DNA of 64,000 bases from Antennarius striatus (Eukaryota; Chordata; Actinopteri; Lophiiformes; Antennariidae), in contig NC_090780.1 of assembly GCF_040054535.1 (NCBI RefSeq), positions 14,088,501 through 14,152,500 on the forward strand, written 5' to 3'. Below, in pieces: positions 59,101-62,100 of the stretch. How positions within the stretch are numbered: position 1 is the stretch's first letter; each line of letters begins with the position of its first letter. The notes below the pieces were generated by a model. It did no database searches, had not been told where the DNA came from, and saw only the letters and a program-made list of their open reading frames with translations. The position numbers and the translations under genes are program-made.

Positions 59101-62100
59101 CAATGCCTGTGGGCTGTACCACAAGATGAATGGTCAGAATAGACCACTCATCAAACCCAAACGTAGACTGGTGAGTCTCATCATTTATAGAAGGGGGGGG
59201 GGGTAGGGTGTTAGTGAAAAACTGTACGTGTGTGTGGAGAAGGTGGGAATAAATAAAGAGTGTAAGGCGGAAGTAGAGGAAGGGGGTGGTGGTGGGGCAC
59301 AATAGCAGGAAAGTTATATTTTCCCAATCAGTTTCCAGAAATTGTGTTTCTCAGTCACCTCTTGCTCTTTGCGCTCACACAGTTAGCAGAGCTGGACTAT
59401 CTGTGTTGTTTCTCTTATCATTATTACTGCTACTTCTGATACTGTCATTGATAGCAGGCCAAGTTCTTTCCTAACAACACAGGCCCTCTGCTGACAGCTC
59501 TAGGCTCACAATGTTATCACACTTTTTGAAATTTGTGAGATAAATTTGATTTTATTTTGACACAGAAAATCTGCACAGCTTAACAAAAAATACAAGTCTC
59601 AAAATCAGTATATTTTGAACTTTTAAAATAAAAAAGTAAATGTTCTTTTGAGATAATGATTTGTTATAAAGGTAGAAACAGGAGTATTTTTTGTAGCTCA
59701 CATAAATCTTACTTCTGGGAAATAACATGGTTCCTAATGACTGTGAGGGGGTCAGTGTAAAAGGAACAAAGTAGATTTGGTTTGATTCAAATATTCCCAT
59801 TATGATCTGCTTCAAACATCAGTGTTACTGGGAATCAGTGAGACCAGTTATATTTCATGTTTCATGTCTACAAATGGTTATTAAAATATTAGAATTCAAA
59901 CTCAATCCATACATTTTTTGAAATGATAAGCTAATTCTAGTTGATTTATAACTATGACAAGCCTGAAGTATTGGCTCTATATGGTCATGCAAAAAATGTA
60001 ATTAAAATTTTAACTGTTAAAATAAAGTTTGACGTAAATTTCAGTTCAATTTAATTCCATTTCAAAATAAAACATCGCAGTCAAAGTGTGTTGGTGTAAC
60101 CCAGTGAACTAGTCGTGTTTATGGTCGTGTGGTGCAGCAGCAGGCAGCTGGGAAATCAAACCCGTGTTTACACAGTCAACACACACTGATCATTAAACCA
60201 CATTTAACAGACGAGTGTGTATCGCTGTGGACAATCACACCTGGAACTTTTCGAAATCATTTTTAATAGTTTTATTTTGAAGAGAACATGGCTCGTCACC
60301 CCAACCCGAAAACAGTATCTGATCTGAAGACAACAATGTTTATGTTGATCGATTCTGCTTTATTTAAGCCAACACAACATACAAACACACAATAAATAGT
60401 ATGACGGGTCTATTTTAAGTCTTTCAAATAGTTTTGGTGATTCACTTGATCAGATTGCTTATTTGTCAATTTTTGAGTTTACATCGGTGCGGAACAAACA
60501 GGACACTAAAGTGGAATACCAGGCATTGAAACAATTACCTGCTGTAGTCGAACATGAGTGCTTTTCTGTGTGCGTCCTTCGGGCATGCAGAGCCGTATTT
60601 CAGGCATGGTTTCCGTATGGCGCGCAGTGCGCCGCAGCGGCTTGTGTTCCGCGGCAGCAGCAGCCCTCCAGTTGTTTCCTATCCGGATATCTGACCGGTC
60701 CAGATAAAGCAGCGCCTGTTTCCTCCTGCGGTCCCCCCAACGACAGGACCTAGACGCAGTTTCATGGTGGTCAAGCTCTCCGGCCATGGAAGTTAAAGCA
60801 AAGTAGAATGAATGAGAAAAAGATGATTGGAAACGTTTTGGAACTTGATCTACAACCGAACAACACTCCCCTCATTTTTTCTCGATTTTCAGAGTGAACC
60901 TATTAATATAGAAAAAAGTTTTATACTATATATTTCATATGTTGTCTGATAATAAATTTATTACATCCATTATGCAGATTGATGGAGCAGATTAATATGT
61001 GATTTATTTATTTATTTAAATTTTTTATTTTAATTTTATGAAATACACCAAAATCATGATTCAGGGGTAAGGAAATGGATTACCAAGAAGCTGTAAGGGC
61101 TCCTCACTCATAATTTAGATACGGTGGTGATGAGTTTCAGTTGTATGAAGGGAACATTTCAAATGTCAAATATAACAAATAAGCATTCTCCTTGTGACAT
61201 TGTAATAAATTTAATTAAAAATGTTCTCTCAAAATCATCTCGGAGGTAAATAATTGGTCTGCATATACATATATCAAAAGGAACAATTATTTGAATAGTC
61301 AGTCTCTCACTTGAAAAAAAATTAGGTGTCTGTTTGTATTTACTGGTACTCTTCCTTAAAAATTTGAGCTTTTGAGATGTTTGTCTGAAAAAACAACATA
61401 CTTTAATTAAAATGTCACAATGTGCCTCTTTGACTGTGTATTTTTACCATAGTTTTCATGAGTGAATTTTAATTTAATGAATAATAAAATAATTAGCATA
61501 TGATTTCAATAACAGTTGTGTGGAACTATTTTAATGAAAAGCAATAAATATCACAAAATAAATATAATGTTCAATGTGTTGACCTGTTTGTTGTTTTCAC
61601 TTTTGACCTCTAATCAAAGTTTCATCCATATTTTTCTCCAGTCTGCTGCTAGACGAGCAGGCACCTGTTGTGCTAACTGTCAGACGACCACCACCACACT
61701 GTGGCGGCGCAATGCTAATGGAGACCCAGTGTGCAATGCCTGCGGCCTCTACTTCAAGTTGCATAACGTAAGTCTGTGTTTAATTGCCACATTGGGCCTG
61801 TGCAAAGCTAACGGGGTGAAGTAGATGGGAAGGCAGGAGGGTTACACTGGTGGATGAAGGTGGTTGAGGAAGAAGAGATGGAGAAGAGGTTTTTCTAACC
61901 CCAGGCACCGTTGGACTTGTTGGTGTTTCCTTTGTGCTTTCTTGTTTCCATGGTTGGCGTAATCCTTTTGAGTCTCACAATGGTGGGACTGTTGGTGAGA
62001 GGGGCTTCCGTAAGGCGAGTCTCATTATGAATAGGAGACTGGAGGCATCAAAATAGGGTTGCATGTTGCAGACGGTATTCTTTATGATTGTACGGTCAAC

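Follow-up and report, generated by a model that had tools for sequence, protein, structure and literature searches.

A probable equivalent of the Gata2 +9.5 enhancer in the fish Antennarius striatus, carrying a partial E-box between the zinc-finger exons of a gata2 gene

The mammalian Gata2 +9.5 enhancer carries the composite CATCTG-N8-AGATAA. We sought printed letters of this element, mammalian or fish, in the literature and found none. In zebrafish, intron 4 of gata2a holds a conserved block of ~150 bp with GATA, E-box and Ets words, which its authors regard as the +9.5 counterpart; ATAC-seq, reporter and deletion experiments all mark this i4 enhancer as endothelial, its chromatin being accessible in endothelium, where it drives expression, and normal haemogenic programming requires it (PMC7018942, from the available portion of the paper). 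According to the same portion, the E-box is placed otherwise with respect to the GATA word than in mammals, a spacer of ~9 bp being kept. The corresponding human enhancer is struck by two disease variants at its E-box-GATA composite and its ETS motif (c.1017+512del28 and c.1017+572C>T), and variants in it lower GATA2 expression (PMC5663362, available text). An E-box-spacer-GATA composite, occupied by GATA2, is likewise found in Samd14-Enh and other +9.5-like enhancers (PMC7242717, available text).

In mouse erythroid cells, according to the accessible part of PMC4702602, about three-quarters of the TAL1 plus GATA1 sites are linked to a partial E-box of the form TG-N7-8-WGATAA; no single class at TAL1-GATA1 sites is commoner than the full E-box, yet full E-boxes are a minority of them. 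The structural reading offered there places the E-protein on TG and TAL1 over positions 1-2, with a single TAL1 residue contacting a specific base, namely the C in CANNTG, and it describes positions 1-2 of partial E-boxes as predominantly MA or BG, which is a preference and not an absolute rule.

The DNA analysed here (the window) is a stretch of 64,000 nucleotides, or 64 kb. We assembled from it a gata2-type gene of five coding exons with GT-AG borders and an unbroken protein of 456 residues. The two finger-bearing exons and the exons of neighbouring genes are:

15098-15595, plus strand: PFKFB-type exons
20070-20450, minus strand: ARPC4 exons
27990-28373, minus strand: RAB7A exons
38340-39252, plus strand: exons of a fibrinogen-domain protein
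59025-59170, plus strand: coding exon 3 of the gata2-type gene, N-terminal zinc finger, ending in phase 0
61642-61767, plus strand: coding exon 4 of the gata2-type gene, C-terminal zinc finger

Elsewhere in the window, a frame at 7537-8091 looks like mobile-element remains with a retroelement-type integrase, and one at 47731-48597, of the endonuclease/exonuclease/phosphatase family, is mobile-element-like and perhaps a LINE. Repeats of the CA/GT type give long open frames without any sign of a gene at 35421-35711, 36978-37253, 44627-45055 and 54515-54826.

When the protein was compared with solved structures, the top score went to GATA-3 in the two-finger chain 4hc7, GATA-2 being represented among the structures searched only as single fingers (6zfv, 5o9b). 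In the alignments as displayed, the N finger shows 2 differences from GATA-2 over 44 positions and 1 from GATA-3 over 48; for the C finger the counts are 2 over 40 for GATA-2, of which one lies at the margin of the solved construct, and 2 over 42 for GATA-3. Like GATA-2, the window gene reads GTCC at the place of GTSC in GATA-3, and it reads VNRPL where GATA-3 reads INRPL. We take the gene to be probably gata2 and not GATA3, in view of these words, of the remainder of the protein, whose N-terminal half and tail read as GATA2, and of RAB7A, which lies upstream of the gene here and is a neighbour of human GATA2. In finer detail, the N finger contains GATS and RRDS, compared with GATA and RRDG in solved human GATA2, GATS and RRDG in GATA3, RRDG in GATA4 and RRDR in GATA1; the C finger contains LYFKLHN against LYYKLHN in GATA2 and GATA3, the F being found also in GATA1.

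The intron between coding exons 3 and 4, and so between the two fingers, spans 59171-61641 (2,471 nt); the name intron 4 holds for it only given one upstream non-coding exon. By the exon coordinates, coding exon 3 ends after 960 coding bases at a codon boundary, and c.1017 likewise ends a codon in the human gene. We presume that this is the intron of c.1017+512del28 and c.1017+572C>T and that of zebrafish i4, the human exon too ending between the fingers.

A first-pass annotation of this DNA had described, at 60655-60735, a fish version of the +9.5 element in the intron between the two finger exons. Both the place and the letters hold: the exon assembly and the finger matches put the block between the N- and C-finger exons, and on re-reading the sequence we found TATCTG, 8 nt, AGATAA and two TTTCCT words as described. 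The features are:

60669-60674, plus strand: CAGTTG, the sole complete E-box within 60500-60850 and a candidate substitute E-box
60675-60680, minus strand: TTTCCT, an ETS-type word (GGAA on the minus strand)
60681-60688, no strand assigned: ATCCGGAT, two overlapping GGAT-type ETS-like words, present in a single copy in the window
60688-60693, plus strand: TATCTG, an E-box-like word at the position of the +9.5 E-box
60694-60701, no strand assigned: ACCGGTCC, the 8-nt spacer
60702-60707, plus strand: AGATAA, the sole WGATAR site within 60500-60850
60719-60724, minus strand: TTTCCT, the second ETS-type word

Both AGATAA and the 8-nt spacer are present, and CTG-N8-AGATAA is intact; the upstream word is TATCTG and not CANNTG, retaining the CTG half and having T instead of C at position 1. 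ETS motifs adjoin the composite at 60675 and 60719 (TTTCCT) and at 60681 (ATCCGGAT). The element resembles human and mouse +9.5 in its E-box-like, GATA and ETS words and its 8-nt spacer, and departs from them in reading TATCTG where the canonical mammalian word is CATCTG. It also lies further into the intron, the motif starting 1,518 nt past the last base of coding exon 3 as against ~0.5 kb from the exon for human +9.5. Like zebrafish i4 it is a fish intronic element with GATA, E-box-like and Ets words, a likeness drawn from the description in the available text of PMC7018942, and it is unlike i4 in that the zebrafish E-box is placed differently from that of mammals. Samd14-Enh differs in belonging to another gene and in having an E-box (PMC7242717, available text) where the word here is non-CANNTG.

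The composite motif exceeds chance. Across the 64-kb window, YATCTG-N8-AGATAA occurs 2 times against 0.03 expected (100 shuffles), and TATCTG-N8-AGATAA with up to one mismatch gives 6 matches against 0.31 expected, 2 of the 6 being other-strand readings of the places at 60688 and 5773. In shuffle tests made after the fact, no shuffle among 2,000 for the intron or 5,000 for the GC-rich island described below contained exact [CT]ATCTG-N8-AGATAA, and the looser [CT]ATCTG-N5-12-AGATAA turned up in 12 of the 2,000 for the intron. Another exact TATCTG-N8-AGATAA (TATCTGTCACTTGCAGATAA) lies at 5773-5792, upstream of gata2 and ~50 kb from its start codon, in AT-rich surroundings with neither ETS nor CpG context and no sign of function. 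Because this copy lacks the flanking features, the motif alone is not diagnostic and is no proof of function. The loose pattern TG-N7-8-WGATAA is found at 18 places in the window, including TGACCGGTCCAGATAA at 60692. No copy of the block was found elsewhere in the 64 kb (best partial match 16-20 nt, E 0.52), which disfavours a repeat within the window. A scan of prokaryotic and viral contig collections for TTTCCTATCCGGAYATCTG returned 2 prokaryotic records, in Oribacterium and a Nitrososphaeraceae MAG, and 0 viral ones; we took these matches as chance.

The motif sits at the centre of a region of distinctive base composition, which by its GC and CpG profile is the likely extent of the enhancer core:

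60563-60759, no strand assigned: GC- and CpG-dense island holding the element

GC rises to 0.62 in this island, compared with 0.35 across the intron, and 16 of the intron's 41 CpGs fall within one 180-nt stretch, the intron's only dense one. None of 20,000 uniform CpG placements reached 16 per 180 nt, a control that ignores local GC. CpG in the island equals the expectation from base content (16 vs 16.3 expected), while in the bins 59171-60550 and 60850-61629 it falls below it (21 vs 56.3 expected). The zone without CpG depletion is wider than the block, since 60011-60490 (observed/expected 0.46-1.28) and 60791-60970 (0.90-1.09), each figure resting on 2-5 CpGs per 120 nt, are not strongly depleted. 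The island's CpG pattern suggests methylation protection or constraint, as for a regulatory element of unspecified kind. A density of 16 CpG per 180 nt is reached at 3 places in the 64 kb: the island, 12352-12559 and 23596-23893. Across the window, CpGs are packed most densely at 23564-23913, between the ARPC4 and RAB7A exons, where they reach 19 per 180 nt; this cluster is perhaps a promoter.

CpG islands often mark promoters, and one could speculate that the island is some other functional element, such as an alternative promoter, a non-coding transcript or a cryptic exon, in which the motif is incidental; stop-free frames do span the block on the plus (60400-60753) and minus (60506-60871) strands. 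We regard this as very improbable, as the co-location with the composite motif would then be a coincidence and searches of Pfam, solved structures and Rfam gave no accepted match. A coding exon at the block is disfavoured by Pfam, which gave nothing above cut-off in either frame across it (best E 0.52 in the plus frame, none in the minus frame), and by the absence of a solved-structure match for the plus frame; a known RNA is disfavoured by the absence of an Rfam match in 55000-64000.

Since the block lies in the inter-finger intron, carries a motif beyond chance and coincides with the GC/CpG island, a +9.5/i4 counterpart is likely. Judged from sequence, the block is probably the fish counterpart of the Gata2 +9.5/i4 endothelial-haemogenic enhancer, in which TATCTG would be a tolerated variant and not a broken site. 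The first-pass annotation had further held that the block follows the grammar shared by mammalian +9.5 and zebrafish i4. Here the motif set, the intron and the gene family stand, and the equation of zebrafish i4 with the mammalian grammar is probably in part mistaken, the E-box position in zebrafish being different (PMC7018942, available text). Its proposal that the SCL/TAL1 half-site is weakened with the spacing kept fits the structural reading in the available part of PMC4702602.

The sequence agrees exactly with the partial E-box composite of TAL1-GATA1 sites, TG-N8-AGATAA being formed by TGACCGGTCCAGATAA at 60692, and it differs in having TA at positions 1-2 (60688-60689), outside the MA/BG preference; the reference data are for GATA1 in mouse erythroid cells (PMC4702602, available text). 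The base corresponding to the TAL1-contacted C is T, with TG, spacing and AGATAA kept, and the plain prediction is a site that would do without TAL1's only base contact while keeping those of the E-protein and GATA factor. With a displaced E-box in zebrafish i4, and with partial E-boxes at most TAL1-GATA1 sites, the alteration appears less remarkable than first proposed. Since the zebrafish E-box position differs (PMC7018942, available text), TATCTG more probably reflects a broader difference of fish from mammals than an unexpected lesion.

The zebrafish precedent also lends itself to another reading, namely that the enhancer is orthologous and its E-box has turned over: CAGTTG at 60669-60674, the sole complete E-box within 60500-60850, would be the working site, paired with the GGATA core at 60685-60689 at 10-11 nt, and TATCTG would be a relic. 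Such an arrangement would resemble the displaced zebrafish i4 E-box with its ~9 bp spacer kept (PMC7018942, available text), and CANNTG-N9-12-GATA is indeed present there, as it is at 8 other places in the window. However, the partner word GGATAT is not WGATAR, and from CAGTTG to AGATAA at 60702 the distance is 27 nt, outside the 6-14 bp range of composites in the available text of PMC10065080. We hold turnover to be the less probable account. Read on the other strand, CAGTTG gives CAACTG, which also fits a MYB word.

Because TATCTG is CAGATA on the other strand, the block could instead contain an inverted GATA pair. TATCTG and CAGATA form matching inverted 6-nt arms around 7 nt, and GATA cores lie at 60680 (minus), 60686 (plus), 60688 (minus) and 60703 (plus). 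The minus-strand word, however, is AGATAT and not WGATAR, and the spacing would be unusual, as the double-GATA elements counted in the available text of PMC10065080 have spacers of at most 5 bp; we consider this reading unlikely. Slightly more unlikely still is an allelic or assembly artefact, under which CATCTG would be normal for the species and the T would come from a sequencing error or a rare allele. One transition, in one assembly, separates the word from the canonical form, but the gene reads through without a break in frame and no N occurs in the window.

The most likely account is that the block is an unexceptional version of a famous enhancer, whose partial E-box belongs to a known type. 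The sequence itself shows the words and their spacing, the intron and the island; orthology is inferred from these, and the bound factors and the activity are putative. AGATAA would be the site of GATA factors, probably of Gata2 itself in an autoregulatory manner. LMO2/LDB1 would bridge to an E-protein/TAL1 heterodimer docked upstream at the partial E-box, where the E-protein may read the retained CTG half and TAL1 would lie over TA without its single base-specific contact. The flanking GGAA/GGAT words would be recognised by ETS factors.

Whether the gene is gata2a or gata2b bears on how this account is valued. The available text of PMC4806627 gives two finger changes specific to GATA2b, one replacing Ser by Gly (N finger) and one replacing Ala by Gly (C finger), with positions not stated. 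In the window gene two N-finger places are Ser, and each Ala of the human GATA2 C finger is retained; taken literally, the published differences would favour gata2a. However, human GATA2 (6zfv) has Gly and Ala at the two Ser places, so that the direction of the statement in that text is doubtful, and the finger changes could equally be compatible with a faster gata2b. The PFKFB-type, ARPC4 and RAB7A neighbours were not tied to either paralogue in the literature text searched. For gata2b, the available portion of PMC7018942 reports no broad non-coding conservation, and orthology of the element would be less expected if the gene were gata2b; it also describes a small patch in gata2b intron 4, conserved in some fish and without an ATAC peak, as maybe a divergent enhancer. 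That the gene is a faster-evolving gata2b with a working +9.5-type enhancer, which has lost TAL1's single base contact and kept the E-protein, GATA and ETS contacts, is a doubtful proposal.

The formation of blood stem cells depends on the +9.5 element, and losing it causes GATA2 deficiency in humans. A natural enhancer without the base contacted by TAL1, and with spacing, GATA and ETS words in place, would be a test of the need for TAL1's own DNA contact. The significance would be greater if the paralogue were gata2b or the TAL1 contact truly dispensable: the gata2b case, if true, would supply both a naturally occurring separation-of-function allele of +9.5 and the divergent gata2b intronic enhancer on which, in the available text, the zebrafish authors only speculate.
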